From contig NZ_CP109131.1 of assembly GCF_035917995.1 (NCBI RefSeq), forward strand, positions 6,882,001 to 6,946,000: a DNA stretch of 64,000 nt, read 5' to 3'. Numbering within the stretch: position 1 is the stretch's first letter; every line of letters begins with the position of its first letter. Shown one piece after another: positions 42,694-56,589 of the stretch. The position numbers and the translations under genes were made by a program. The stretch is from Streptosporangium sp. NBC_01755 (lineage in GTDB: Bacteria > Actinomycetota > Actinomycetes > Streptosporangiales > Streptosporangiaceae). The notes beneath the pieces were generated by a model. That model saw only the letters and a list, made by a program, of their open reading frames with translations. It ran no database searches and was not told the origin of the DNA.

Positions 42694-43650
42694 ATGAAAG
42701 CCCAGTGTGGCACCGTTTGGGGAGTGAAAGAACCGGCTGCCGGCATACCGGTCCCGCCCCCGCCGCGCTCGGGTGACACGGTGGCGGTGGTCGCACCGTC
42801 GGGACCCCCCGATTTCGAGAGGCTGGCGCGCGGCGTCCGTGTTCTGGAAGGGCTCGGTCTGAAGGTCGTCATCGGTGCTCATGTCCTCGACAGGGACCGC
42901 TACCTGGCGGGCTCCGACGCCGACCGCGCCCGCGATCTGCAGGACGCCTGGTGCGACCCCGCGGTGAGCGCGGTGTTCTGCGCTCGCGGCGGCTACGGGG
43001 CCACCCGGCTCCTCGGCCTGCTGGACTGGGACGCGATGCGGGCCGCCGACCCCAAGGCTCTGGTCGGCTCCAGCGACGTCACCGCGCTGCACAGCGCGTT
43101 CGCCGTGGAACTGGGCGTCGCCTCCTGGTTCGGTCCGATGCCGGCCTCTGCCACGATCAGCGACCCCGCCGGACCCGAGCCGCGCACCTTCGAGAGCCTC
43201 ACGGCCGCCCTGGCCGGAGCGCCGCCGCCGATCACCGGTGACCGGGTGATCGTTCCAGGTGAGGTCACGGCACCGGTCACCGGCGGTAACCTCAGTCTGC
43301 TGGCCGCGCTCTGCGGCACGCCGTACGCGCTGTCGGCACGGGGGCGGATCGTCCTGCTCGAGGACGTCGGCGAGGCGCCGTACCGGATCGACAGGATGCT
43401 CACCCAGCTGCTGCAGGCGGGGGCGCTCGACGGAGCCGCCGGGTTCGTCCTGGGCTCCTGGATCGACTGCGGCGACCCCTACCCCGTGCTGGAGGAGCTG
43501 CTCACGCCGCTCGGAGTGCCCGTCATCGCGGGGCTGCCGATAGGGCATGGAGAGCCACAATTTTCAGTATTGCTTGGGACACTTGGTGCTATTGATGCAA
43601 AATCGTGCTCTCTTGCCTACTCAACAGGGGGCGCCGACGAGGCACTCTAG
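42694..43650 (+). CDS. LD-carboxypeptidase (peptidase S66 / MccF family)
   Basis: 318 aa from the ATG at 42694, with GGAGG 6 nt upstream; a GTG at 42724 is an alternative. S66 serine peptidase: VAVVAPSGPPD, AVFCARGGYGATRLLGLLDWD, VGSSDVTALHSAF (nucleophile Ser region), GNLSLLAALCGTPY, LLEDVGEAPYRIDRMLTQL (catalytic Glu) and GLPIGHGEPQFSVLLG (catalytic His). It trims D-Ala from tetrapeptide murein precursors or cleaves microcin C-like peptide-nucleotides. The last 30 codons (43546-43650) switch to A/T-ending codons in sharp contrast to the rest. Confidence 0.92.
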   Translation: MKAQCGTVWGVKEPAAGIPVPPPPRSGDTVAVVAPSGPPDFERLARGVRVLEGLGLKVVIGAHVLDRDRYLAGSDADRARDLQDAWCDPAVSAVFCARGGYGATRLLGLLDWDAMRAADPKALVGSSDVTALHSAFAVELGVASWFGPMPASATISDPAGPEPRTFESLTAALAGAPPPITGDRVIVPGEVTAPVTGGNLSLLAALCGTPYALSARGRIVLLEDVGEAPYRIDRMLTQLLQAGALDGAAGFVLGSWIDCGDPYPVLEELLTPLGVPVIAGLPIGHGEPQFSVLLGTLGAIDAKSCSLAYSTGGADEAL

Positions 43651-43689
43651 GTGCGAACCTAGGAGGAAACCGGCAGAGGGGACGCACGC

Positions 43690-44634
43690 GTGAGATTGTT
43701 CCGGCGGCACCGTCACCGGCGAACCGAGGCGCTGCCGCGCCCGATCGAAGAGGTCGATCTCGACTCCCTGCTCGCCCTGGTCGCGGACAGTCTCGGTTAT
43801 GCCTGCGCGTTCGACCCCGGCGGCGGCGTCCTGACGCTCACCGGCCCGCGCCGGGTCGTGGTGCGGCTGGCGGGGCTGCGCGCCGAGGCCCTGAGGCGCT
43901 CCCGCGAGGACTGGCCGATGCTCGTCTCCGAGCACCTGTCCCACGTCCTGGCCACGCTGGACGAGCCGCTCGACGCCTGTGACCTGGATCAGATACGCCC
44001 GATGCTGCGGACCCGCATCCAACTCGACGACGACCTCGACTCGACCCGCGTGGTCGGCCGTCACCTCACCGCCGACCTGGTCGAGGTGCTCACCATCGGC
44101 TACGGCCCCGCCGGTCGCCCGGTCCGCCCCGAGGAGGTCGGCTGCTGGCCGATCACCGCGGCCCAGGCGCTCGACGTGGCCCTGGAGAACGCCCGCCAGG
44201 ACGAGCGGCTCTCGGTGACGGAGGGCGATCTCGGTGGGGTGGCGGTCCGCAGGCTGACCGGGCCCACCGCCGGCGCCGCCGCCCACCTGCGCAGGCTGGG
44301 CGACTACCTGCCGGTCCCCTCCGACGGGGTTCTCGTCGCGCTGCCCGACCCGGCGACGCTGATCGTCCACCCGGTCGAGGGCATCGGCGTGGTCCGCGCG
44401 ATCGAGCGGCTCCGGCTGTTCGCCCAGCGGGAGTTCGACATGCGCGCCGAGGCACTCAGCCCGCAGGTCTACTGGTGGCACGGTGGCCGCCTCTCCCTGA
44501 TCAGGGCCGATCTGGTCAGCCAGGGCGGGCAGACCCGGCTGGTGGTCGCACCCCCACCGGACTTCGCGCGTGTCCTGGCGGCCATGGCCGTCCGCCCGGA
44601 GGCCCATTCCGACGGCGAGTCCGGCGTCGGCTGA
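43690..44634 (+). CDS. conserved actinobacterial protein of unknown function
   Basis: 314 aa, GTG start with GAGGGG about 9 nt upstream. I do not recognise a named domain. The protein is soluble. It begins with a basic RRHRHRR patch, then IEEVDLDSLLALVADSLGYACAFDPGGGVLTL and alternating strands and helices (RVVVRLAGLRAEALRRSREDWPMLVSEHLSHVLATL). The arrangement resembles the DUF1444/YtpQ pattern of phage- or chaperone-like unknowns, but the match is too weak to name. It starts 39 bp after the LD-carboxypeptidase gene and may be co-transcribed. Confidence 0.75.
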   Translation: MRLFRRHRHRRTEALPRPIEEVDLDSLLALVADSLGYACAFDPGGGVLTLTGPRRVVVRLAGLRAEALRRSREDWPMLVSEHLSHVLATLDEPLDACDLDQIRPMLRTRIQLDDDLDSTRVVGRHLTADLVEVLTIGYGPAGRPVRPEEVGCWPITAAQALDVALENARQDERLSVTEGDLGGVAVRRLTGPTAGAAAHLRRLGDYLPVPSDGVLVALPDPATLIVHPVEGIGVVRAIERLRLFAQREFDMRAEALSPQVYWWHGGRLSLIRADLVSQGGQTRLVVAPPPDFARVLAAMAVRPEAHSDGESGVG

Positions 44635-44799
44635 CGCGCCGATCACCCGAAGCGGAGGAGGTCCCTCGCCCCGAAGGACTCCGTCGGCCGATTCTCGGAT
44701 CGGTCCCGGCGCTCCCGCCCGCGCCCTGGCAGTGGTCGCGGGATGGGGCATGATGGGGTCTGGATCTACCGAACTGTGGGCCAGTGCCCCGGTGTTCAC
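44635..44799 (+). promoter_or_regulatory. probable original upstream region of the hsp70-like gene
   Basis: 165 bp ending in TTCAC, the likely IS target site. Before the insertion this would have joined directly to GAGGAGTGGGAC and the hsp70-like ATG, so any native promoter would lie here. CATGAT near 44749 is a possible -10. Nothing firmer is visible. Confidence 0.35.
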
Positions 44800-44879
44800 G
44801 CCGGAGGTGAAGACCCACGCGGGAGTGCCCGCCAGGGCGCGAGCGTGCCCTGGCCTTCCGTGCCCGTGAGCAGGTCGGC

Positions 44880-45290
44880 TCACGCGGGTCGTTTCCGCTG
44901 TTCGATGTACTGCTTGAGGACCGCGAGCGGTGCGCCGCCCACGCTTGCGGCGAAGTAGGAGCCGGACCAGAAACGCCCGCCGCACAGGTATTGGCGGACG
45001 TGAGCGCCGTATTCCTTGCGCAGCATCCGCGCCGAGACGCCCTTCGGTTGAGTTGACGAGCTTGGACAGGGCGACCTTTGGCGGGTAGTGGACCAGCAGG
45101 TGAACGTGGTCGTGGTCGCTGTTGAACTCGCGAGGTTCGACCTCGAAGTCGGCGCGGACCTCGCGCATGAGTTCCTCGCAGCCGACCGGCATCGGGCCGG
45201 TGAACACCCCATGCCGGTACTTCGTCACGAACACCACGTGTGCGTGAAGGCCGCGGACAACATGGCGTCCGGTGCGTACCTCGGGGTTTG
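44880..45290 (-). pseudogene. tnpA: IS200/IS605 TnpA (Y1 HUH transposase), frameshifted
   Basis: Frame 1 reads NPEVRTGRHVVRGLHAHVVF, VTKYRHGVF and SDHDHVHLLVHYPPKVALSKLVNS, including the HUH motif (HVH). A one-base insertion near 45055 then shifts the frame; frame 2 continues KGVSARMLRKEYGAHVRQYL and AVLKQYIEQRKRPA, including the catalytic Tyr. No ATG/GTG/TTG starts the N-terminal part before 45240. Both catalytic motifs survive but not in one reading frame. Confidence 0.85.
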
Positions 45291-45332
45291 GATTCCACCG
45301 CGGTGACGTAAACCAAACGATACGATCACGGT

Positions 45333-46600
45333 GTGGAATCGGTGAGGCAGACTCGTGCGCACGTGGCGCGACTCGACCTCGGCGCGGACCAGGTGGCCGT
45401 GCTGGACGCTCAGGCGCACACCGCCCGCGCGCTGTGGAACCTGCTGCATGAGTACTTCACCTTCCGCCAAGGCCGGTTCGCGACGGTGAAGGACTGCGAC
45501 GCGGCGATCCGCACAGCCCGCCGCGAGATCGACTGGATGGGACAACTACCCGCCCAGGCCGCGCAAGCGGTGCTGAAAACGTACCGGCAGGCGTGGGCGA
45601 ACTTCTTCAACCCCGACCATCCCGCCAAGCGGCCCACGTTCAAGGGCCGCCTACGGACCCGGTTGGCCGTGGACGTCCCCCAAGCCCGCGATCTGCAGAT
45701 CAAGCGGGTCAACCGGCGGTGGGGCGCGATCAATCTCCCCAAGGTCGGGCGGGTGCGGTTTCGATGGACCAAGGACCTGCCCGGCCTCACCAGGGGCGGT
45801 GCTGCCGGGCGGATCACGGGAGCGCGGCTGGTCAAGGACGCCCACGGCTGGCAGGTCGTGTTCCGTACCCAAACCCTCACCGCGCCGGCCCCTGCCGCCC
45901 GCCCGGGCCCCACGGTGGGGATCGACCGGGGGATCACCGTCGCCCTGGCCCTGTCGGACGGCACCATGCGTGAGCACGCACCCTGGCTTCGCAACGGCGA
46001 GAGGGAACACCTGCGCCGGCTGGAGAAGAAGGCGGCCCGTCAGCGGCGCACCCGCCAGCGCGCGGAGCCGACCTCGCATCGGCTGGCCCGCACCTACGAC
46101 CAGATCGCCCGGCTGCGCGCGAGAGCCAAGCGCCGAGCCGTCGACTGGCAGCACCAGACCACCACCGAACTCGCCGCCACCTTCGGCGTGGTCGTGGTGG
46201 AGGACCTGAAGATCACGAACATGGTCCGTTCGGCCACGGGCACGGTCGCAAACCCCGGCGTGAACGTCGCGCAGAAGGCCGGGCTGAACCGCTCGATCGC
46301 CGGGGAGGCGTGGGGGCGGACGGTCACCCTGTTGGAGTACAAGACCTCCGACCGGGGCGGCCAGGTCGTGAGAGTCCCCGCGCGGGGACCTCGCAGACCT
46401 GTCACCGGTGCGGCCGTCGTGACCCGGCGGCCCGGGACGGGATAAGGTACGCCTGCGCCAACCCCGTGTGCGGTTGGGTCGGGCATGCCGACACCAACGC
46501 CGCGATCAATATCAAGAACGCCGTCGGAATGCCGGTGTCAGGACGTGGAGACCTCGGGATTACCCGGTCTGCGAAGCGTCAACCCCCGCGCGCCGCTTAA
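45333..46600 (+). pseudogene. tnpB: TnpB RNA-guided nuclease (IS605), frameshifted near the C-terminus
   Basis: GTG start. The first 350 codons contain the N-terminal helical domain, RuvC-I GIDRGITVALALSDG (Asp) and RuvC-II VVVVEDLKITNM (Glu). Near 46386 a missing base throws the frame into a stop at 46445. The correct continuation in another frame reads TSQTCHRCGRRD, YACANPVCGWVGHADTNAAINI (four-Cys zinc finger and RuvC-III Asp), ending at 46600. Without a frameshift correction the zinc finger and third catalytic acid are lost, so nuclease activity is unlikely. Confidence 0.88.
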
Positions 46601-46662: not shown

Positions 46663-49356
46663 ATGGCGCAGTGGTGCCTCGGTGTCGATCTGGGGACGAG
46701 TTTCTCCGCCGGGGTGATAGCGGCCGAAGGGCGCTTCGACGTCCTGGAGGTCGAGGGAGAGCGGCGCATCCCCTCCGCCGTCATGCTGGACGAGCGGGGG
46801 ACGCTCGTGGCGGGCAGGATCGCCCAGCGGGGCATCGCGATCAGCCCCGAGCGGGTCGAGCGCAACCCCAAGCGTTACGTCGGCCGGGGGCGGATGCTGC
46901 TCGGCGGTGTCCCGGTGGACGTGGCCGACGCCATGGCGGCACTGCTGGAGCTGTTCGTCAGCGAGGGGCGGCGACGGTTCGACGGCGCCGATCCCGACTG
47001 CATCGCGCTGACCCACCCGGTGGCCTGGGACGCCGGCCGTAAGGCGGTGCTGCTGGCGGCGGCCAGGAAGATCGTCAGCGGCGTGCGGATCGCGCTCATC
47101 GACGAGCCCGTCGCCTCGGCCCGCTACTTCGCCTCCGCCGGGCGGGCGGACGGCGGGTCGCGGCTGGCCGTCTACGACCTTGGCGGCGGCACGTTCGACG
47201 CCGCGGTGCTCACCGTGGACGGCGGTGACTTCGCGGTCGTCGGCGAACCGGGCGGCAGCGACGAGATCGGCGGCGAGGGGTTCGACGAGCAGGTCTTCGC
47301 GTTCCTCGGCGCCCAGATCGAGCGGCTCGACGCCGACTGGTGGCAGCAGGTGACCACCAACCCCGAGCGCCGTTACGTCAGCTACGCCGCCGACCTGCTC
47401 AAGATGGCCAGGGAGGCCAAGGAGACGCTGTCGAAGTTCGAAACCTCCTCCCACTACGTGGTCGGCATCAACGAGGACGTGCACATCACCAGGGCCGACC
47501 TGGAGGATCTCATCGGCGAGGAGATCGTCAGGACGGTCGACATCCTGGACGAGACGATCCGCGGCGCGGGGGTCGAGTCCGGCGAGCTGGCCGCGGTGTT
47601 CATGACCGGTGGCCCCAGCCGGATGCCGCTGGTCCAGAAGGCCGTGCGCGAGCGTTTCGGCGACCGGGTGCGGACCTACGACGACCCGAAGATCGTGGTC
47701 GCCTACGGTGCCGCGCAGCTGGCCTGGAAGCTCAAGGTCGAGCACCGCGGGCCCGGCGCGGACTCCGCCACCGCCGGCGGCCACCGGGCCGCCGGCGGTG
47801 CGGCGGGCATTCCCGGCGCGGGGCAGGTTCCACCCGCCTCCGGTACCTCCGGCGCTCCAGGTACGGGGCAGCGGGCCTTCACCGGCCCGGTGCCCGGCCA
47901 GGCCGCGGGCCACCAGATGCCCAATGCGGCCAACGCGGCCGGTGCGGCCGGTGCGCCGGTGGCGGTTCCGACCGGCGGTCACCGGGCCTTCACCGGTCCC
48001 GAGGGAGGTGCCACCGGTGGCCATCGGGTGCTCACCGGTCCCGGCGACGGCGCCACCGGCGGGCACCGAGGGCTCAGTGGCCGGCCCGCGGGCCGCGGGG
48101 GCACGGCGGGCGGGGACGGACCCGGCGTCCAGGGGATCGAGAAGGTGATGGACGGCGTGCTGGAGGCGCGTGCCGAGGCGGGCCGGGTCTTCGTCCACCA
48201 GGCCTTCGAGCACGGCCACCTGCTGCGCAGGCTCGACGGGATCGAGGGCCGGCACGACCGGGAGCTCGGCTTCGGCAGGCTCGTGGAGTGGGCCGCCTCC
48301 AGCGAGGGCGTCGTGGCGGTGGAGCAGGTCGGGCCCGCGCAGGTGCTGGTCCGCGCCCTCACCCGCGACCTCGCCATCCGCGCCACTCACCCGCTGCAGA
48401 TGTGGGGCAACCCCACCGCGATCGCCCACGGCCGTACGGCGTGGGTCTTCTTCCACTCCCGCCAGGCCGCCGGTGTCGACACCTCGATGGGGCTGCCCTG
48501 GGGGGAGACCGGGCAGCTGGCCATGATCGAGCTCGATCTGGGCGGGGGCTTCGCCTTCCAGGCCCCCCAGCCGCGCGAGCTGGGCCCCTACGCCCAGTGG
48601 TTCCTGAACGAGGACAACAGGTCGCGCCGGCTGCTCGACCAGGAGGCGCCCAGCGGCAGCGAGCCGTCGTCCTCGGTGGGCGCGCCGGGCTGCACCGTGG
48701 TGCTCGGGCAGTTCAGCAGCAACAAGCCGATGTTCCAGAACCGGCACCAGGATTTTCGGCCGTGGCAGGTTCTGTGCCTGGTCGATCCCGGCGGCGTGGT
48801 GCGCCCGACGGTGCGCGAGCCGGGGCGCGGCTGGCTGCACCAGGTGGTCCTGCACCGGGGCAGGTGGTTCACCTCCGGCTCGGCGGGGCTGGAGGCCGAC
48901 ACCGCGGACGGCAGGACCAGGCTGGTCATGCCGCGTCCCCGGGGCGGCGCGCTGCGCTGGTTCTCCGCGGGCAACGAGATCTACGCGGTCGGCACCGACC
49001 AGGTGAGCCCGGCCAGGGGCTGGTCGGTCGGGATCTTCGACCAGCGTTCCCAGACGCTGGAGTTCCTGATGGGCAAGCAGTCGGCGACTCTGGCCGGTCA
49101 CCTCACCTCCCGCCACCGCTGGGAGCGGCCGAGGCTGGTCGCCGACGGCGACTCGATGTGGATGACCATGCAGGACGCGGGCCGTAGCAGGCTGCTGCAC
49201 GTCACCCCCGGCGGGGCGCGGGAGGTGCACCGCACCCCGGGGATGTTCGAGCCGGTCGCCCGGGTCGCCACGGGCCTGCTGTGCCTGCACCGCCCCGCCG
49301 ACGCGACCGGCGCCACCCGTGACCGGCCCGCCACCCTGGTGCACCTGCCGCTCTGA
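46663..49356 (+). CDS. Hsp70-like ATPase with non-DnaK C-terminal domain
   Basis: 897 aa, ATG with AGGAG 6 nt upstream. Residues 1-355 are a complete Hsp70 nucleotide-binding domain: GVDLGTSFSAG (phosphate 1), VYDLGGGTFDAAVL (phosphate 2), IDEPVASARYF (connect 1) and VFMTGGPSRMPLVQKAV (adenosine). Residues about 360-490 are a Gly/Ala/Pro-rich linker with repeated GGHRxxTGP. Residues about 490-897 have repeated beta-strand pairs with Trp (AWVFFHSRQ, GWLHQVVLHRGRWFTSGSAG, LRWFSAGNEIYAVG), looking like a beta-propeller rather than a DnaK substrate domain. No J-protein is adjacent. It converges on the dynamin/GrpE-like operon. Role unknown; a dedicated chaperone or ATP sensor is inferred. Confidence 0.85.
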   Translation: MAQWCLGVDLGTSFSAGVIAAEGRFDVLEVEGERRIPSAVMLDERGTLVAGRIAQRGIAISPERVERNPKRYVGRGRMLLGGVPVDVADAMAALLELFVSEGRRRFDGADPDCIALTHPVAWDAGRKAVLLAAARKIVSGVRIALIDEPVASARYFASAGRADGGSRLAVYDLGGGTFDAAVLTVDGGDFAVVGEPGGSDEIGGEGFDEQVFAFLGAQIERLDADWWQQVTTNPERRYVSYAADLLKMAREAKETLSKFETSSHYVVGINEDVHITRADLEDLIGEEIVRTVDILDETIRGAGVESGELAAVFMTGGPSRMPLVQKAVRERFGDRVRTYDDPKIVVAYGAAQLAWKLKVEHRGPGADSATAGGHRAAGGAAGIPGAGQVPPASGTSGAPGTGQRAFTGPVPGQAAGHQMPNAANAAGAAGAPVAVPTGGHRAFTGPEGGATGGHRVLTGPGDGATGGHRGLSGRPAGRGGTAGGDGPGVQGIEKVMDGVLEARAEAGRVFVHQAFEHGHLLRRLDGIEGRHDRELGFGRLVEWAASSEGVVAVEQVGPAQVLVRALTRDLAIRATHPLQMWGNPTAIAHGRTAWVFFHSRQAAGVDTSMGLPWGETGQLAMIELDLGGGFAFQAPQPRELGPYAQWFLNEDNRSRRLLDQEAPSGSEPSSSVGAPGCTVVLGQFSSNKPMFQNRHQDFRPWQVLCLVDPGGVVRPTVREPGRGWLHQVVLHRGRWFTSGSAGLEADTADGRTRLVMPRPRGGALRWFSAGNEIYAVGTDQVSPARGWSVGIFDQRSQTLEFLMGKQSATLAGHLTSRHRWERPRLVADGDSMWMTMQDAGRSRLLHVTPGGAREVHRTPGMFEPVARVATGLLCLHRPADATGATRDRPATLVHLPL

Positions 49357-49358
49357 CC

Positions 49359-49431
49359 GTTCCCGCCCCTGACCCCGGCCAGGGGCGGGAACGGCCGTCG
49401 TTCCGGCACTCTCAAGGCCGGAACGACGGCC
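49359..49431. terminator. double bidirectional terminator between convergent genes
   Basis: Hairpin 1: GTTCCCGCCCCTG (49359-49371) with CAGGGGCGGGAAC (49380-49392), 13 perfect pairs. Hairpin 2: GGCCGTCGTTCCGGC (49393-49407) with GCCGGAACGACGGCC (49417-49431), 15 perfect pairs. GGCACTCTC/GAGAGTGCC (49405-49442) offers an alternative pairing with hairpin 2. Confidence 0.8.
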
Positions 49432-49474
49432 ATGAGAGTGCCGGACCCGGGTGACCGGCGGAGCGGCCGCCCGG

Positions 49475-51400
49475 TCAGGTTCCGGCGGGGACCGGCTGCT
49501 CGGCGCCCAGGGCGGCCACCGCTCCGGCCAGTTCCCTGCGGAGTTCGTGGCCGCGCCGGGTGAGGGCGCCGATCGCCGCGATGCGCTCCTGGCCCGACTT
49601 GCGGGCCTTGAGGCGGTCGGCGGCCGAGCGGGCGGAGGCGGACTTCAGCTCGGCGCGCCTGGTCTCCAGTTCCCTGCGCCGCCGGGCCAGGGTGTCGTCG
49701 GCGGCCTGCTCGACGCTCACCCGCCAGGTGGCCACCATCCGCTCCAGGTCGAGTGTCATCTCCCTGGTGATCACGGCGAACTGGTCGCGCAGTGCTCCTC
49801 TGATCGCCGCCTGGCTGCGCTGCACCTTCTCCATCGAGCGCCGCCCCATGAAGATGGCCGCGCCGATGGCCGGGGCGACCAGGATGAAGCCCACCGGGCC
49901 GAGCAGGGCCGTGGCGAAGCCGCCCAGGGACAGCCCGATCGAGGCCGAGGGCAGCACGTCCCGGATGAGGTCCACGCTTTCCGGGGCTTCGGCGGCCGTG
50001 TCGCCCCTGACCTGCACCTGCGACAGGCTGGGCATCGCCTGTCTGTCGGTGGTCAGCTCGACCGGGTCGAGGCCGAGATCGCGGGCGAAGGCGTCCAGCG
50101 TGGTCCTGGCCAGCTTCTCCACGTCGTAGACGATCTGCGACCAGGCGGCCTCCAGGGAACGCTGGACGCTGACCGGCAGCTCCGCCATGTACTGGTCGAT
50201 CTGGGCCTGCTTCTTCAGCGTGGCGATCGTGTTCTCGTACGGCTGGCGGATCTCGGCCACCCGTGCGCCCACGATGCCCCCCACCTCCCGGCCGATGAAG
50301 GTGTTGGCCACCATGCCCGCCCTGCGCCGCGCGGACAGCTCGGCCAGGCCGGCCAGGTCGGCGTCCACCTCGGCGAGCCTGGCGGTGACGTCGCCGTCGT
50401 CGTCGGAGCCCGCGGCGACGTCGTCCTTGGCGCCGGTCGTCAGCGAGCCCAGCACCGACAGGGCGGCGGCGACCACCGTGGCGCCCCGCGCCGAGTCCCG
50501 GCCCTCGGCGAAGGCGCGCAGGTGCCGCTCCAGCGCGTCCATGCCGCTGCGCGCCCGCAGCGTGTTCGCCCGCTCCTCGCGCCCCTCGCGCCGCTTGACC
50601 TCGGCTGCCTCGGCGAGCTTGGCGCTCACCGGGATCCAGGGTGCCTCCAGGAGCGGGGCCAGTGTCGCCGCCCTGGCGGGGTCGGCGGCGATCGCCTCGG
50701 TGACGAACGTCCTCAGGCGGGTCTTGTTCTCCTCCTGGAGGTTTCGCCAGTTGGTCGAATCCTCCACCTTGGTCAGCACGAACACGATCGCCTGGACCCG
50801 CTCGGCGGCCTCCGCGAGGAACTCCAGCTCGTGCCTGAGTACCGGCTGGTCCTGCGCGCTGAGCGCGAACAGCAGCGCGTCGGCCCGCTGGAGCATGGCC
50901 ACGGTCACCTGCCGGTGCCCCACCGTCAGGCTGTCCACGCCGGGGGTGTCGAGCAGCCGCAATCCGTCGAGCAGGGGGTTGTCGAGGGTGATGTCCACGC
51001 TGACGACGTCACGACGCTTGCCCGCGTCACCGCGCATCGAGGCGTAGTCGGGGATCGACTCGATGGTGATCGGCGTCTGGAGCGGCCCCGAGTCGGTGCT
51101 GCGGTGGACGACGGCGGCCAGACGCGGGCCGCGCCGTAGCGACAGGAAGCAGTTGGTGGCGACGTCGGCGTCGACCGGGAGCAGGTCGGGGTGGCCCACC
51201 AGCGTGTTGAGCAGCCGGCTCTTGCCGCGTTTCTGCGCCCCGGCGACCACGATGTCGGTGCACTCGTCCTTCCAGCGGCCCGCGCACGCGGCCAGCACCT
51301 CAGCGAGGTCCTGCCTGCCGCACTGCCCGGCCAGCGCGTGGACCTCGTTGGCGTAGCGCAGCAGCCTGGCCACGGGGCCGGTCGGGTCGGAGGTCGTCAT
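49475..51400 (-). CDS. dynamin-family GTPase (IniA-like), membrane-associated
   Basis: 641 aa. G1 P-loop VVAGAQKRGKSRLLNTLVG, switch Thr in DADVATNCF, G3 LLDTPGVDSLTVG, and G4 VFVLTKVEDS. A long helical stalk follows. Near residues 465-515 a Gly/Ala-rich hydrophobic segment (SIGLSLGGFATALLGPVGFI, LVAPAIGAAIFMG) could form the membrane-inserting paddle typical of bacterial dynamin-like proteins. C-terminal coiled coil. It is the last gene of the minus-strand operon, 65 bp after the second GTPase gene. Bacterial tandem dynamin pairs (DynA/DynB, IniA/IniC, LeoA-type) remodel or fuse membranes; that function here is inferred. Confidence 0.87.
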   Translation of the reverse strand: MTTSDPTGPVARLLRYANEVHALAGQCGRQDLAEVLAACAGRWKDECTDIVVAGAQKRGKSRLLNTLVGHPDLLPVDADVATNCFLSLRRGPRLAAVVHRSTDSGPLQTPITIESIPDYASMRGDAGKRRDVVSVDITLDNPLLDGLRLLDTPGVDSLTVGHRQVTVAMLQRADALLFALSAQDQPVLRHELEFLAEAAERVQAIVFVLTKVEDSTNWRNLQEENKTRLRTFVTEAIAADPARAATLAPLLEAPWIPVSAKLAEAAEVKRREGREERANTLRARSGMDALERHLRAFAEGRDSARGATVVAAALSVLGSLTTGAKDDVAAGSDDDGDVTARLAEVDADLAGLAELSARRRAGMVANTFIGREVGGIVGARVAEIRQPYENTIATLKKQAQIDQYMAELPVSVQRSLEAAWSQIVYDVEKLARTTLDAFARDLGLDPVELTTDRQAMPSLSQVQVRGDTAAEAPESVDLIRDVLPSASIGLSLGGFATALLGPVGFILVAPAIGAAIFMGRRSMEKVQRSQAAIRGALRDQFAVITREMTLDLERMVATWRVSVEQAADDTLARRRRELETRRAELKSASARSAADRLKARKSGQERIAAIGALTRRGHELRRELAGAVAALGAEQPVPAGT

Positions 51401-51465
51401 GATCCTTTTCTCCTGTCGGGGATGGATGGGGATGGGCCGGTGCCGTCTTCCGGCGGCGTCCCCTC

Positions 51466-53298
51466 TCAGGAAGCGCCGGCGTGGTGCGACCAGATGGTCT
51501 CGTACGCCTCGCAGAGGGTCTCGGCCGCCCGCCGCTGCCGCAGGGAGAGCGGCCGGTGGGTGAGGGAGCGGAACCGGGCGCTCAGGGCGGCGGCGTAACC
51601 GGCGATCTCGGCGCTCGGGGCACCGGGCGGCGCCCCGAGCTGGGTGGCCAGCTCGGCACCGGAGAGCAGGAGTTCCAGCGCCCGCCGGTCGTCGAGCGGG
51701 ACCATGGGGGAGGCCCGCAGCGCCTCGATCGCGGCGGGGTCCACCCGGATCGGCGGGAGCCTCCCGCCGCCGCCCCCGGTGTCGGTGGGGGCCGCCTGCT
51801 CCTCCAGCGCCGCTGAGACGAGGTCCTCCAGGACGGTCAGCACGTCCCTGGCCCGGTGCCCGCCGGCGCGGCCCTCGCTCATCATGGCGAGCGTGCGCCA
51901 GCGCATCGACGCCGCGGTGGCGGCGGCGGCGACCTGTTCGGGGGAGGCCCCCGCGGGCAGGCCGAGCTGCTCGGCGGGCTCGTCGTGGCGGGCCAGTCGC
52001 AGCAGCTCGGCGGTCATCTCCTCGTTCAGGACCAGCGCTCCGCGGCCGAGCGCCTCGGCGGCGGTGAAGATCCGCAGGCCGCCCAGGGAGGTGGCGATCG
52101 GCCGGTTCTCGTCGAGCTGGGCCGCCAGCGCGTCCAGGGTGGCGCGGTCGGCACCCATCGCCGGCGTCCTGGCGAGTGCGCGGAGCCGGGTCAGCGCGTC
52201 GAGCGCCTTCAGCTGGTCGGCGCGGCGGGCGAAGTGGGCGATGCCCGCGGCCACCGAGCCGGTCGCGGCCCGCCCCGCGGAGGAGTAGCCGGAGCGTTCC
52301 AGCAGGTGGGAGGTGAGCGCCTCGGGGGAGGCGGTGCCGGCCGCGCGCACCGCCTCGACCGCGCTGGTGATGCCGTAGCGGTGCAGCCGCTCCACCAGCC
52401 GGTGGCGCACCTCGGCCGGCACGGGCAGCTCGGGCGCGGAGCGGAAGTCGTCCAGGTCCAGGAGGTAGTCCTCCAGGTCGTCCTCGTCGAGCCCGGCCAG
52501 CGTCGCCAGGGCCGCCACCTCCTCACCGTCCAGCGGGCGGGCCCGCGCGGTCTCGGCCAGCAGGCCGATCACCGGGACCACGTCGAAGACGGAGGTGCGC
52601 AGGTCCTCGTACCCCTTGGCGGCCAGCCGCCTGGCGGTCGGCCACGGGTCGCCCTCGTCGCCGCGCCGGTCGACCTGGCCGAGTACGGCGAGGGTGTTGA
52701 CGCAGCTCATCCCGCAGGCGTCGGTCAGCCCGCGAAACTCCGCGAGGGTGGTGTCGTCGAACTTCTGGACGTAGCGCAGCACGTAGATCATCGCTTGTGC
52801 GCGGTCGTCCTCGTCGCCGGAGCCGAACAGCATGCTCCTGGCCGCCCGCTCGTTGGCGGCCGTCACCGTGTTCATGCCGGGGGTGTCGACGATGGTGATC
52901 GTGCGCAGCGACGGCAGGTCCAGGGCGACCCGCAGACGCCGGATCCGGGCCACGTCGACGCCGAGTTCGGAGGGGAGCCGGTGGCCTGGCAGCAGCCGGG
53001 AGTGGGCCACGCCGCCGTCGAGGAGCTCGATCGTGATGCGGCCGTCGTCCTCGCCGTACTCGTACTGGGTGACGACAAAGGTGCACTCGCCGGCGTCCAC
53101 CGGGGCGACGGGCAGTCCGAGCAGCGCGTTGACCAGTGTCGACTTGCCGCTGCTGACCGCGCCCGCCACCGCGACCCGCAGCGGCGCGTCGAGGTCGGCG
53201 CGTACCTGCGCCACCCGCTCGCGCAGCTCCGCGCCGGAAAGCCTGGCCGAGGTGGTGTCGCACAGGCGGCGCAGCAGGTCCGCGGGTCCGGTGCTCAC
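51466..53298 (-). CDS. dynamin-family GTPase (IniC-like)
   Basis: 610 aa, GTG start overlapping the small upstream ORF (GTGA). G1 VAVAGAVSSGKSTLVNALLG near residue 42, switch Thr in DAGECTFVVTQYEYG, G3 TIVDTPGMNTV, G4 region AVLGQVDRRGDEGDPW. The rest is helical with no TM segment, so it is probably cytosolic and partners the longer, paddle-bearing GTPase encoded downstream. The architecture is like mycobacterial IniC next to IniA. Catalysis residues look intact; the G4 motif is QVDR instead of N/TKxD. Confidence 0.87.
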   Translation of the reverse strand: MSTGPADLLRRLCDTTSARLSGAELRERVAQVRADLDAPLRVAVAGAVSSGKSTLVNALLGLPVAPVDAGECTFVVTQYEYGEDDGRITIELLDGGVAHSRLLPGHRLPSELGVDVARIRRLRVALDLPSLRTITIVDTPGMNTVTAANERAARSMLFGSGDEDDRAQAMIYVLRYVQKFDDTTLAEFRGLTDACGMSCVNTLAVLGQVDRRGDEGDPWPTARRLAAKGYEDLRTSVFDVVPVIGLLAETARARPLDGEEVAALATLAGLDEDDLEDYLLDLDDFRSAPELPVPAEVRHRLVERLHRYGITSAVEAVRAAGTASPEALTSHLLERSGYSSAGRAATGSVAAGIAHFARRADQLKALDALTRLRALARTPAMGADRATLDALAAQLDENRPIATSLGGLRIFTAAEALGRGALVLNEEMTAELLRLARHDEPAEQLGLPAGASPEQVAAAATAASMRWRTLAMMSEGRAGGHRARDVLTVLEDLVSAALEEQAAPTDTGGGGGRLPPIRVDPAAIEALRASPMVPLDDRRALELLLSGAELATQLGAPPGAPSAEIAGYAAALSARFRSLTHRPLSLRQRRAAETLCEAYETIWSHHAGAS

Positions 53299-53444
53299 GC
53301 GTCACCGCCCTGGCCGTCCGATGTGTTCCCGTGTTCCGCCGCGCGGGCCGGGAGAGGTCGCGGAGCCGGCTGAGGGGCGGGATCGAACCGTGCGCCTGTC
53401 GTGAGGTCCGGCGCGCTGTTCTCGCGGGGAGCCGAGCCGCTCAC
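53295..53444 (-). CDS. small Pro/Ala-rich ORF coupled on both sides
   Basis: 49 aa. The GTG overlaps the upstream GrpE-like gene stop (GTGA at 53441-53444), and its own stop overlaps the start of the dynamin gene (GTGA at 53295-53298). The product (VSGSAPRENSAPDLTTGARF... ending SDGQGGDA) is predicted disordered, with no TM. The double 4-nt overlap suggests it is translated, either as a peptide or as a ribosome bridge to the dynamin gene. No homologue recognised. Confidence 0.45.
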   Translation of the reverse strand: MSGSAPRENSAPDLTTGARFDPAPQPAPRPLPARAAEHGNTSDGQGGDA

Positions 53445-54316
53445 CGTTCCGCCCCGGGGCCCGGTGAGACGTGGCGGTAGACGACGACCTGCGGTACGCG
53501 GATCACGTGTCCACCGTCGGCGTACCCCCGCCTGACCGTCTCGGCGACGATGTCGTGCAGCTCGGGGCTCCCGGCCGGCGCGGTGCCGAACGCCTCGTGC
53601 AGGCGCGGGTCGAAGCGCTGCCCGTCCGCGACGATCTCCTGGACGCCGGCCCGGTTCAGTGCCTCCAGCAGCGTTCCCGCCAGCCGGGGGTGGCGCTCGG
53701 CGAGCTGGTCCCGGTAACCGACGCAGGCCCCCACCAGGGCCTCCCGCCCGGGGTGACCCTCGGAGAAGAGCCTTTCCACCTGCTGGGTGAGCGCCGGACT
53801 GATCCCGCTTCCGGAGACCTGAGCCAGTGCCTCGGACAGCGGATCGGCGGGTGGTCCGGCGGGTGGTCCGGTGGGTGGTTCGGCCGGTGGGCCGGTGCGG
53901 CCGGCGACGGGCCGGACCGGCGTCGAGCCCGCCTCGCCCACCGGGAACGGCACCGTCCCCTGCGGTGCCGTCCCCGGTCGAGGTGTCCCGTACGGGGCCG
54001 CCTGCCAGGTGCCCGGCACGGGTGCCTGGGCGGGGGCGGGGCGGCGGTTGCGGTGCCACAGGTACAGGCCCGCGGCCGCCGCGGCCAGGGTGCCCGCCGC
54101 CACCGCGAGCACCAGGGGCAGCGGGAGGAGTCCGATCGGTGTTCCCACCGTGACGGATCCGGCCTCCCCGGGGCGCAGGGAGCCGACACCGTCACCTCGC
54201 AGGGGGGCCGAGGACGCGGTGGCGGTCTCCCCGCGAAGTCCCGCCACCGCGCCGCAGCCGGTCAGTGCCGGCCAGGCCAGCAACAGCAGGGGAAGGAACA
54301 CGCGTCGGTCCCTCAT
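53441..54316 (-). CDS. membrane-anchored GrpE-like protein
   Basis: 291 aa. Residues 1-20 form a lipoprotein-type signal (FLPLLLLAWPALTGC, lipobox LTGC). A TM helix follows (IGLLPLPLVLAVAAGTLAAA..., about residues 61-85), then RNRR and a Pro/Gly-rich spacer. The C-terminal 110 residues resemble the GrpE nucleotide-exchange domain: LLEALNRAGVQEIVADGQRFDPRLHEAFG, then DIVAETVRRGYADGGHVIRVPQVVVY. The predicted topology puts the GrpE part in the cytosol, tethered to the membrane. This could recruit the Hsp70-like partner to the membrane. GrpE similarity is by eye and should be confirmed by structure prediction. Confidence 0.78.
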   Translation of the reverse strand: MRDRRVFLPLLLLAWPALTGCGAVAGLRGETATASSAPLRGDGVGSLRPGEAGSVTVGTPIGLLPLPLVLAVAAGTLAAAAAGLYLWHRNRRPAPAQAPVPGTWQAAPYGTPRPGTAPQGTVPFPVGEAGSTPVRPVAGRTGPPAEPPTGPPAGPPADPLSEALAQVSGSGISPALTQQVERLFSEGHPGREALVGACVGYRDQLAERHPRLAGTLLEALNRAGVQEIVADGQRFDPRLHEAFGTAPAGSPELHDIVAETVRRGYADGGHVIRVPQVVVYRHVSPGPGAER

Positions 54317-54404
54317 CGGTCGCCTTTCTCGTCGGCGGCCCTTGTGACCCGGATCCGAGTCCCCCTCTCGGTGAGGTCACGCGGGCTCACGCCGGTTCTT
54401 TCCG

Positions 54405-54659
54405 TCAGACGGTCGGGAAGGGGCCCGCGACCTCGGTGTAGTCGGCGACCCCGTCGCCGTTCAGGTCGACCAGGGTCTCGTCGATGTAGCCGTCGCCGTC
54501 GTTGTCGAGGTAGACGACGTCGGTGACGCCGTCGCCGTCGACGTCGTAGCGCTCCTCGTCGGCGAGGCCGTCACCGTCGGTGTCGATCAGCTGGGCGTCG
54601 GTCCCTCCGTCGCCGTCGTAGTCGACCAGGTCGGTGGTGGTCACGTCGAAATCGCTCAT
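54405..54659 (-). CDS. small Asp-rich calcium-motif repeat protein
   Basis: 84 aa, ATG start. Five DxDGDG-type loops (DYDGDGGTD, DTDGDGLAD, DVDGDGVTD, DNDGDGYID, DLNGDGVAD) spaced 12-14 residues, as in EF-hand/dockerin or thrombospondin type-3 calcium sites. No signal peptide is visible, so it is apparently cytosolic. It begins the minus-strand gene set ahead of the GrpE-like gene (88 bp gap). A regulatory calcium-binding role is inferred only. Confidence 0.75.
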   Translation of the reverse strand: MSDFDVTTTDLVDYDGDGGTDAQLIDTDGDGLADEERYDVDGDGVTDVVYLDNDGDGYIDETLVDLNGDGVADYTEVAGPFPTV

Positions 54660-54828: not shown

Positions 54829-56589
54829 TCAGCTGAGTGCGCGGGCGGTGTGGATCAGCGGCACGTGGCTGAAGGCCTGTGGGAAGTTGCCGACCATCCG
54901 GCCGTAGCGGGGGTCGTACTCCTCGGCGAGCAGGCCGACGTCGTTGCGGAGCGACAGCAGGTGCTCGAACAGCTCGACCGCCTCGTCCTTGCGGCCGATC
55001 ATCGCCAGGACCTCGGCCAGCCAGAAGCTGCACGCCAGGAACGCCCCCTCACCGCCGGGCAGGCCGTCCACCTCGTTGTCGGTCGAGACCGGGTAGCGCA
55101 GCACGAAGCCGTCGACCATCAGCTCGCGCTGGATCGCCTCCACCGTCCCGATCACGCGCGGGTCCTCCGGCGGCAGGAAGCCGACGATCGGGATCAGCAG
55201 CAGGGCCGCGTCCAGCTCGTGCGAGCCGTAGGACTGGGTGAAGGTGCCGCGCACCGGATCGAAGCCCTTGTCACAGACCTCGGCGTGGACGCGGTCGCGC
55301 AGTTCCCTCCAGCGCGCCAGCGGGCCGGGCTTGGCGAAGGTCTCCATGTGCTTGACGGCCCGGTCGAGGGCGACCCAGCACATGACCTTGGAGTGCACGA
55401 AGTGCCGGCGCGGGCCGCGGACCTCCCACAATCCCTCGTCCGGCTCGTCCCAGTGCTCCTCGACGTAGGAGATCAGCTCGAACTGGATGGTCCAGGCCCG
55501 ATGGTCGGACTCCAGACCCGAGACACGAGACAGGTACAGGGAGTTCAGGACCTCGCCGTAGACGTCCAGCTGGAGCTGGTCGACCGCGCCGTTGCCGATC
55601 CTGACCGGCCGGGAGTCCTCGTAGCCGGGCAGCCAGTCGAGCTCAAGCTCGGTGAGCCGGCGCTCCCCGGCGACGCCGTACATGATCTGCAGGTCCTGAC
55701 CGCGGCCCGCGATGGCCCGCAGCAGCCAGGACCGCCACGCGCGGGCCTCGTCCAGGTAGCCGGAGCCGATGAGGGCGTCCAGGGTCATGGTGGCGTCGCG
55801 CAGCCAGCAGTAGCGGTAGTCCCAGTTGCGCACGCCGCCGAGGTCCTCGGGCAGCGAGGTGGTGGGGGCGGCGACGATGCCGCCGGTGGGGGCGTAGGTG
55901 AGCGCCTTGAGCGTGATGAGCGAGCGGACCACGGCCTCGCGCCACGGGCCCTGGTAACTGCACCGCTCGACCCACTCGGCCCACAGCTCCTCGGTCGCGG
56001 TCAGCTGCTCGTACGGGTCGATCTCCTCGGGCCTGGGCTCGTGCGAGGGGTGCCAGGTGAAGACGAACGCCATGCTGTCGCCCTCGGAGACCTCGAACCT
56101 CGCCGTGTGGGCGTAGTCGCCGCCCCGGAGCGGGACGGGGGAGTGCAGCCACACGGAGTCGGGTCCGCCGACGGCCTGCAGGAGGCCGTCGCTGCGGCGC
56201 ACCCAGGGCACGATCCGGCCGTAGTCGAAGCGGATGCGGATCTCGGTGGCCATCTCCACCGTCCCCGACACGCCCTCCACGATCCTCACCAGGTCGGGGT
56301 TGGTGTGCCGGGTGGGCATGTAGTCGGTCACCCGGACCGTGCCGCCGGGGGTGTCCCACTCGCTCTCCAGGATGAGGGTCTCGCCCCGGTAGCGGCGCCG
56401 GGTGGCATGGGGCCGCCCGGCGTCCGCGGGGCCGATCCACCACCGGCCGTTCCGGGCGTCGCCGAGCAGTGCGGCGAAGCACGAGGGCGAGTCGAAGCGT
56501 GGCAGGCAGAGCCAGTCGACGGAGCCGTCCCTGCCGATCAGGGCCGCTGACTGCATGTCGCCGATGAGAGCGTAGTCCTCGATCCACAT
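54829..56589 (-). CDS. glycoside hydrolase family 15 protein (trehalase/glucoamylase-like)
   Basis: 586 aa. N-terminal beta-sandwich MWIEDYALIGDMQSAALIGRDGSVDWLCLPRFDSPSCFAALLG, then the (alpha/alpha)6 catalytic domain beginning LPEDLGGVRNWDYRYCWLRDATMTLDALI (the GH15 WDYRYCWLRDA signature). C-terminal GAFLACSFWLAEVLAMIGR and PLIHTARAL. Actinobacterial relatives include the GH15 trehalase of mycobacteria and Streptomyces, so trehalose or alpha-glucan hydrolysis is likely. Cytosolic, no signal peptide. GAGG lies 1 nt before the ATG, so the message may be leaderless. Confidence 0.93.
   Translation of the reverse strand: MWIEDYALIGDMQSAALIGRDGSVDWLCLPRFDSPSCFAALLGDARNGRWWIGPADAGRPHATRRRYRGETLILESEWDTPGGTVRVTDYMPTRHTNPDLVRIVEGVSGTVEMATEIRIRFDYGRIVPWVRRSDGLLQAVGGPDSVWLHSPVPLRGGDYAHTARFEVSEGDSMAFVFTWHPSHEPRPEEIDPYEQLTATEELWAEWVERCSYQGPWREAVVRSLITLKALTYAPTGGIVAAPTTSLPEDLGGVRNWDYRYCWLRDATMTLDALIGSGYLDEARAWRSWLLRAIAGRGQDLQIMYGVAGERRLTELELDWLPGYEDSRPVRIGNGAVDQLQLDVYGEVLNSLYLSRVSGLESDHRAWTIQFELISYVEEHWDEPDEGLWEVRGPRRHFVHSKVMCWVALDRAVKHMETFAKPGPLARWRELRDRVHAEVCDKGFDPVRGTFTQSYGSHELDAALLLIPIVGFLPPEDPRVIGTVEAIQRELMVDGFVLRYPVSTDNEVDGLPGGEGAFLACSFWLAEVLAMIGRKDEAVELFEHLLSLRNDVGLLAEEYDPRYGRMVGNFPQAFSHVPLIHTARALS

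Follow-up and report, generated by a model that had tools for sequence, protein, structure and literature searches.

An Hsp70-like ATPase gene beside an Ini-type dynamin pair in Streptosporangium: a side branch of iniBAC-type loci with a GrpE-like protein

Introduction

The iniBAC genes constitute a well-known mycobacterial envelope-stress response. Here we analyse a related cluster in a 64,000-nucleotide stretch of Streptosporangium sp. NBC_01755 (assembly GCF_035917995.1, contig NZ_CP109131.1, forward strand positions 6,882,001 to 6,946,000; hereafter the window), in which two dynamin-like GTPases (DYN1 and DYN2), a GrpE-like protein (GRPEL) and a small Asp-rich protein are encoded next to an Hsp70-like ATPase (HSPL). 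We read it as an envelope-stress module of the Ini type in which the two dynamins have an Hsp70-type ATPase as their dedicated working partner, a reading to which we give somewhat less than an even chance.

According to excerpts of PMC5760070, trehalose induces iniBAC by way of IniR, and a single line of that text places a dnaK-like gene downstream of iniR in Mycobacterium smegmatis. Among the open-licence literature matches listed, this line is the sole mention of a link between dynamin or Ini proteins and Hsp70, and a module such as the present one is undescribed in them. IniA cuts membranes and binds lipid via its loop 463-485 together with R488/K489 (excerpts of PMC6715688).

Two adjacent dynamins, as in the window, are also a feature of Cj-DLP1/2, LeoABC and Nostoc BDLP1, but no Hsp70-like ATPase or GrpE-like protein is described with them in the excerpted text of PMC6104087. 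The same excerpts report a DnaJ-like domain on a Nostoc dynamin next to BDLP1, proposed to bind DnaK, which supports an independent, recurring link between Hsp70 and dynamins. GTPases, HSP70 (also without its peptide-binding domain) and GrpE share one neighbourhood in the GAP1-N2 GTPase systems, mainly of actinobacteria and firmicutes (Kaur et al., 2020; PMC7159879, in excerpt), as they do in the window; those systems however comprise GAP1, zinc-ribbon or transmembrane (TM) GTPases and FNIII proteins, whereas the GTPases of the window are dynamins. Pfam and NCBIfam gave no GAP1, zinc-ribbon GTPase or FNIII match in the five window proteins, farther neighbours having been partly scanned.

Results and discussion

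Gene set and layout

The five genes span window positions 46663-54659, with the Hsp70-like gene on the plus strand (ATG at 46663) converging on four minus-strand genes, which read from 5' to 3' Asp-rich protein (open reading frame (ORF) start at 54659), GRPEL, DYN2 and DYN1 (Table 1). A sequence-only reading had proposed this gene set, with four genes sharing the minus strand and the hsp70-like gene converging on them; the layout was borne out, and all five genes are present where they had been placed, and family searches support the Hsp70, dynamin and GrpE assignments. The source genome is a single contig of 8.15 Mb. Compared with four relatives of the genus, the four larger genes have ratios of nonsynonymous to synonymous substitution rates (dN/dS) of 0.13-0.46, in accordance with purifying selection, which is unclear in two of four comparisons for the Asp-rich gene (0.33, 0.36, 0.81 and 1.21 over about 80 codons). 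A scan for sigma-70 promoters and terminators gave nothing above shuffled sequences.

Table 1. Features of the Hsp70-like/dynamin locus and its flanks, in window positions (pLDDT, predicted local distance difference test; aa, amino acids)
Feature	Position	Strand	Evidence or remark
HSPL, Hsp70-like ATPase gene, 897 aa	46663-49356	+	PF00012, Foldseek; without TM helix by hydropathy
HSPL nucleotide-binding domain, aa 1-361	46663-47745	+	model blocks with pLDDT 84-97
HSPL C-terminal 398 aa	48160-49353	+	no known family; beta-rich in low-confidence model
DYN1, IniA-like dynamin, 641 aa	49475-51400	-	Dynamin_N; IniA 6j72; G1 GAQKRGKS, G3 DTPG
DYN1 hydrophobic membrane loop plus GRR, about aa 487-521	49838-49942	-	layout as in the IniA lipid-interacting loop
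DYN2, partner dynamin (IniC-like), 610 aa	51466-53298	-	Dynamin_N; without hydrophobic stretch
GRPEL, membrane GrpE-like protein (predicted), 291 aa	53441-54316	-	PF01025; GrpE fold
GRPEL putative TM helix, aa 66-89, then RNRR	54050-54121	-	hydropathy; model helix with pLDDT about 40-53
GRPEL GrpE-like domain (two helices, beta-wing), aa 189-281	53474-53752	-	model and Foldseek
Asp-rich 84-aa protein, five DxDGDG-type repeats	54405-54659	-	motif reading
GH15 trehalase-like gene directly upstream	54829-56589	-	PF00723, TREH_N
312-aa protein	43696-44634	+	no Pfam match; adjoins Hsp70-like gene in genus loci, L065 and L066
IS200/IS605-type pieces: Y1 transposase-like ORF start, TnpB-like ORF just before Hsp70-like gene	43621-46445		

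The Hsp70-like ATPase as a neighbour of Ini-type dynamins

Dynamins of this family often have an Hsp70-like ATPase gene next to them. Of 197 genomes of the class, 42 gave matches to dynamin-1 and 47 to dynamin-2, some of which cover only the GTPase domain of other dynamins. Neighbourhoods were compared on stretches of usually about 20 kb, 33 around dynamin hits and 56 named loci from the dynamin-2 profile, with script-called genes and home-built profiles; 75 of the 90 sequences (the window and L065-L153) were retained with both dynamins at 100 bits, and 15 in which both were not found at that score (L097, L129, L141-L153) were dropped. An Hsp70-like gene is present in 54 of these 75 dynamin-pair loci, IniR in 32, IniB in 32, a GrpE-like gene in 15 and a gene for an extracytoplasmic function (ECF) sigma factor in eight; the profiles derive from these very loci and necessarily match their members, and the GrpE-like fraction is inflated since L065-L070 and L072 were fetched partly for their GrpE-like hits. 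The Hsp70-like cut-off lay at 150 bits, below which falls the L140 match (96 bits), with true DnaKs scoring above 530 bits. Genes were called by a home-made codon-bias script, and some starts (for example those of the GrpE-like gene in L239, L240, L242 and L243) look wrong; L214, whose contig equals that of L114 in length, was taken as the same as L114. With Hsp70-like carriers that include Mycobacterium, Nocardia, Williamsia, Arthrobacter, Pseudonocardia, Saccharopolyspora, Kribbella, Paractinoplanes, Frankia and Geodermatophilus, the co-occurrence check supports a conserved multi-gene module in many actinobacterial genera, and the absence of the neighbourhood from other genera, named in the sequence-only reading as refuting it, does not apply.

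Among 19 genomes for which the number of Hsp70 matches is known, 16 have an Hsp70-like gene at the dynamin locus (16 of 20 loci) against 0.52 expected (P 2e-23; the gene number entering this expectation is the count of PF00012 matches, an over-count), and so do 28 of the 42 named dynamin-pair loci, which were picked on dynamin-2 alone. A mere chance neighbourhood might be argued from the genus itself, where full-length dynamin-1 occurs in ten of 16 genomes (the window and nine others) and is missing in six, but the excess of linked Hsp70-like genes led us to reject it, and the gene sets shared by many actinobacterial genera speak against it as well, so that we regard it as exceedingly improbable.

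In a tree built from both dynamins joined, which used a quick LG model, was rooted at the midpoint and has several long branches, the window falls into a clade of 18 rows (Shimodaira-Hasegawa-like approximate likelihood ratio test 99), below called the window branch, and all IniR loci are found among the other 57 rows. This clade holds 14 of the 15 GrpE-like loci, L072 being the exception, and all eight ECF loci (8/18 versus 0/57 in the remainder). IniR never occurs together with a GrpE-like gene (0/15 versus 32/60; p 8e-5, kinship ignored). A tree of the Hsp70-like ATPase domain splits similarly, separating most copies of the window branch from those of the IniR branch with moderate support.

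The dynamin pair with its Hsp70-like gene is an unrecognised extension of Ini-type loci, from which the window cluster branches off to the side of iniBAC. Like iniBAC/IniR loci, it has an IniA-like dynamin with a loop and an IniC-like partner, an operon that opens with a small accessory gene, a regulator that is linked in relatives and an Hsp70-like gene, which is common to IniR loci, bearing out the relation to iniBAC. Unlike them, it has GrpE-like and Asp-rich genes instead, its Hsp70-like protein is without a TM helix and its dynamins belong to another clade; neither the IniB N-terminal domain (home-made INIB profile) nor IniR (profile search) was found in the window. Of the claim of a new system, novelty holds for the version with GrpE-like, Asp-rich and ECF genes, whereas the dynamin pair plus Hsp70-like gene extends loci of a known type.

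The full IniB/IniR/Hsp70-like/dynamin set is also seen in L105, a contig titled as an Acidobacteria metagenome-assembled genome. In L081, L083, L084, L131 and L138, the 16-21 kb around the dynamin pair also contain the true dnaK-grpE genes.

The dynamin pair

Dynamin_N matches DYN1 at E 7.2e-17 and DYN2 at E 1.3e-12. DYN1 matches the IniA structure 6j72 at E 2.5e-17; no IniC structure was among the PDB matches, and DYN2 retrieves, at E 8.9e-31, the second dynamin encoded in L083 (G049), which is an IniB/IniR locus. A hydrophobic stretch at aa 499-517 of DYN1, followed by MGRRSMEK, is laid out like the IniA loop 463-485 with R488/K489. DYN2 has none, as anticipated in the sequence-only reading, which had assigned a putative membrane paddle to one of the two dynamins, and the same holds over the dynamin-pair loci, with such a stretch in 70 of 75 DYN1 proteins versus 13 of 75 DYN2 proteins.

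Matches of the PADLOC models LeoA (3.5e-18) and LeoBC (1.6e-14) to DYN1 and of LeoA (3.7e-13) to DYN2, together with the proposal that neighbourhoods of GTPase, Hsp70 and GrpE are conflict systems (PMC7159879, in excerpt), would be in line with an anti-phage or abortive-infection system. These matches may however reflect plain dynamin homology, and PADLOC had no match for the other three proteins of the window. Pfam showed no nuclease, protease or toxin domain in the five proteins, with a C39-like peptidase domain seen in the Asp-rich protein of L101, and synteny is kept in all ten genus loci that have the module; we thus consider such a function very unlikely. As a search for phage-type systems, PADLOC and PHROGs added only dynamin and Hsp70 homology, and this candidate was dropped.

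The Hsp70-like protein and its C-terminal half

PF00012 matches HSPL at E 1.3e-33 (ORF read from 46468), and the best stretch ends at position 372 of the 599 in the model, so that the Hsp70 part is confined to the ATPase domain; Foldseek placed the model among Hsp70 nucleotide-binding domains (NBDs) at E 3e-26. The substrate-binding domain of DnaK was not found, the last 398 residues being without match in Pfam or PDB, so that the description of an Hsp70 ATPase domain on a non-DnaK body holds. This C-terminal part shows 79-82% identity in five family relatives; across the 197 class genomes, the C-half was detected in the window and two family members only, plus one weak match of 57 residues. 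A beta-propeller was considered for it and found no support: the AlphaFold2 pLDDT is mostly below 50, Pfam and PDB gave no match and hhalign to PQQ-type C-halves reached 0.4%. Among ten Hsp70-like proteins scanned, Pfam recognised a propeller in five and none in the other five; within the window branch, WD40 is found in L067 and PQQ-type repeats in L101 and L114. The Hsp70 ATPase domain is accordingly found with various C-terminal domains, among them more than one kind of propeller. A weak VWA-like match (E 0.007, below cut-off) precedes the ATPase domain of an Hsp70-like protein in L104 (17361-19049).

The equivalents of D8, E171, D194 and T199 are kept in all 14 Hsp70-like proteins of GrpE-like loci, window included. 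In contrast, IniR-locus proteins have G at the T199 position in 17 of 36 and D at the E171 position in 17 of 36, and IniR-branch members such as that of L083 (14092-15879) are possibly pseudo-ATPase sensors. Most Hsp70-like proteins of the IniR branch bear a membrane helix after the ATPase domain, with preceding Arg/Lys by which the C-half should lie outside; by hydropathy, this helix is absent from 11 of 14 Hsp70-like proteins of window-branch GrpE-like loci.

Such a topology invites the view that the Hsp70-like protein is a sensor, its C-half perceiving an envelope signal and its NBD switching the linked regulator (IniR or ECF sigma factor), with the dynamins as output. Thirty of 32 IniR loci also have an Hsp70-like gene, which in 13 of the 30 runs in the same direction as IniR and ends no more than 30 bp before it; Vgb/YNCE- and PD40-type propellers stand beyond the membrane helix in L079 and L124 (IniR branch, by Pfam), and catalytic positions are altered in about half of the IniR-locus copies. 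On the window's side the sensor view fares less well, as IniR is absent from the ten loci with both Hsp70-like and GrpE-like genes (the window and nine others) and a TM helix from most of them, the Hsp70-like gene has no linked ECF gene in the window, L237 and L238, and the catalytic residues tested are intact in this branch. We consider it rather unlikely as an account of the locus.

The GrpE-like protein

PF01025 matches GRPEL at E 1.3e-10 over residues 215-279 only (model positions 100-163 of 165), and the AlphaFold2 model (mean pLDDT 65.8, predicted TM-score (pTM) 0.45) is confident only at about aa 190-280 (block means 90-97). With this model, the best 12 Foldseek matches are all GrpE chains, 11 of them at E up to 1e-3, and a profile of eight relatives matches GrpE structures at E 8.5e-9, with the beta-wing sequence kept. 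The long N-terminal coiled-coil helix of GrpE is missing from the model; in its place stand a putative TM helix and a low-confidence linker with two short helices. Hydropathy agrees with the predicted membrane tether of the protein, by which a GrpE fold would have moved to the membrane; by the positive-inside rule we infer an N-out/C-in orientation with the GrpE fold in the cytoplasm. A lipobox-like LTGC was read by eye at the N-terminus.

A search of 394 class genomes with the profile of eight relatives returned 15 hits of at least 91 bits, the next one scoring 67; a dynamin pair accompanies 14 of these hits, the exception (L221/L232) being on an 18.7-kb contig without dynamin, and nine of ten fetched loci below this gap hold another Hsp70 gene in the stretch. 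The profile A4 includes the window and L114, and scores the GrpE-like gene of L072 at 39 bits; L228, an 8.6-kb contig without dynamin, reaches 98 bits with another GrpE-like profile.

A proposed mechanism and what weighs on it

In eukaryotes, Hsc70 uncoats clathrin. By analogy, the genes would be turned on under envelope stress by a regulator, which many relatives in this branch have in the form of an ECF sigma factor; the IniA-like dynamin would insert its hydrophobic loop in the inner leaflet and co-assemble with DYN2 to bend, tether or cut the membrane. HSPL, which would have kept the ATP-driven NBD and lost the DnaK peptide-binding domain, would use its C-half, a beta-propeller in several relatives, as the client-binding part and load or dismantle dynamin assemblies in ATP cycles, much as eukaryotic Hsc70 resets coats. 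The membrane GrpE-like protein would hold the Hsp70-like ATPase at the membrane and help to release nucleotide, replacing as an anchor the membrane helix that Ini-type Hsp70-like proteins bear themselves, while the Asp-rich protein, encoded first in the operon as iniB is in iniBAC, would probably be a calcium-binding accessory. In its most specific form, a dedicated Hsp70-type machine assembling and disassembling dynamin coats at the inner membrane, with swapped client domains and anchored and recharged there either by its own helix (Ini) or by a membrane-anchored GrpE (window), the proposal is tentative, and we incline against it rather than for it. If true, prokaryotes would have their own version of Hsc70-driven uncoating, distributed across Actinobacteria and present in the mycobacterial ini loci. 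If an Hsp70-like ATPase is a standing partner of Ini-type dynamins across Actinobacteria, it would be a concrete missing component of IniA/IniC control and would link the Hsp70 cycle to bacterial membrane remodelling.

Recruitment of the Hsp70-like ATPase to a dynamin-coated membrane by the GrpE-like protein, as suggested in the sequence-only reading, is a hypothesis. The partners share the Hsp70 NBD fold and the GrpE fold with DnaK-GrpE, but HSPL has neither a substrate-binding domain nor a VLLL-type linker, and GRPEL carries the putative membrane helix in place of the long coiled coil. In favour of such recruitment, the catalytic positions tested are kept in the Hsp70-like proteins of GrpE-like loci, which mostly lack a membrane helix: at least one TM-less Hsp70-like protein is found in nine of ten GrpE-like loci versus five of 43 others (final count, in which L125, cut by a contig end, was left out and L083 is TM-less owing to a second copy that is truncated where the stretch ends). 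Within these ten, the exception is L072, whose Hsp70-like protein has a helix and whose GrpE-like protein has none; the Hsp70-like helix of L100 sits at the C-terminal tail, and L069 and L114 also hold a copy with helix. Some partner has a membrane helix in all ten loci with both genes (by hydropathy, L067 being marginal). A swap of the helix between the partners, although giving a Fisher p of 2e-5 on an earlier count (9/10 versus 7/44), has no power on the tree with its two independent pairs.

A number of observations weigh against a GTPase pair working with a dedicated Hsp70-type ATPase and its GrpE-like anchor. Twenty-one of the 75 dynamin pairs are without an Hsp70-like gene, some of these on short contigs, and G085 and G142, both among the 19 genomes above, each hold a second dynamin pair without one (L070 and L096). 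The ECF gene is missing in the window (no significant trace in 53298-53441), L237 and L238, and Pfam found no J-domain in any of the five window proteins. The helix pattern described above belongs mostly to one clade and is explained for the most part by kinship. An Hsp70-like gene is missing from the stretch in five of the 15 GrpE-like loci, refuting the notion that every GrpE-like gene has a linked one, and the GrpE-like protein is TM-less in four of the five. The adenosine-site serine is not conserved in nine of 14 Hsp70-like proteins of GrpE-like loci. The IIB hairpin, measurable in 63 of 65 Hsp70-like proteins, has 20-27 residues in these versus 30-31 in DnaK. DnaKs that use GrpE as exchange factor retain a long IIB hairpin (PMC10825016, in excerpt); the corresponding segment of HSPL has 22 residues, compared with 30-31 in seven DnaKs and in a third Hsp70 of its own genome, so that HSPL is not a long-hairpin partner and canonical binding of GrpE to its NBD appears doubtful.

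The short hairpin and the five loci without an Hsp70-like gene would both suit a GrpE-like protein acting as an adaptor of dynamin-1, its fold recruited as a binding domain, and not as an exchange factor of the Hsp70-like protein. Gene order is also in line with such a role: in nine of 15 loci the GrpE-like gene shares 1-4 bp with the beginning of dynamin-1, lies within 137 bases of it in two more, and adjoins the IniA-like gene in 11 of 15, and it never overlaps the Hsp70-like gene in the ten loci with both, the nearest being 161 bp apart. In the window, L065, L066 and L101, however, it precedes dynamin-2 and not dynamin-1; an Hsp70-like gene is present in ten of 15 GrpE-like loci, for four of the five exceptions (Amycolatopsis L098, L102 and L103, Glycomyces L099) the genome encodes unlinked Hsp70-like genes of the window's side of the tree, and the beta-wing sequence of GrpE is retained. 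We judge the adaptor role to be improbable.

The Asp-rich protein and the genus loci

The ten genus loci with a full-length dynamin-1 have the complete set of five genes, in the constant order trehalase-like, Asp-rich, GrpE-like, dynamin-2, dynamin-1, converging Hsp70-like, 312-aa gene and sulfotransferase-like. Between the GrpE-like and dynamin-2 genes, seven of these loci (L239-L245) carry the ECF sigma factor gene, which is likewise present in L065, L066, L216, L218, L219 and L220.

Proteins with at least two DxDGDG-type motifs are encoded in ten of 18 window-branch loci (the window, L065, L066, L087 with 13 motifs, L098, L101, L102, L103, L104 and L133) versus nine of the 57 others, and further in L215-L220. 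By this distribution, the Asp-rich protein very probably belongs to the module. The nine loci outside the window branch (L073, L074, L089, L096, L121, L124, L125, L134 and L137) encode long proteins, and seven of them are without a linked Hsp70-like gene; the one scanned, from L073, combines SLT_3, NlpC/P60 and TSP3 as a cell-wall hydrolase, and several others begin alike. In the window branch, the Asp-rich protein of L101 is joined to the C39-like peptidase domain and that of L102 matches DUF6802. As to the proposed calcium motif, the five DxDGDG-type repeats stood, whereas EF-hand_5 and TSP3_bac matched only below their cut-offs, which leaves calcium as a motif reading; no signal peptide was seen by eye. 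From its repeats, the protein is a probable calcium-binding accessory.

Among the flanking genes, the trehalase-like gene is kept in all ten genus loci, L065 and L066, trehalose being the inducer reported for iniBAC through IniR (PMC5760070, in excerpt). TnpB was seen in the window only among the ten genus loci. A small acidic ORF, with no match in the window, overlaps the dynamin-2 start in L065 (14313-14687) and L066 (7446-7889).

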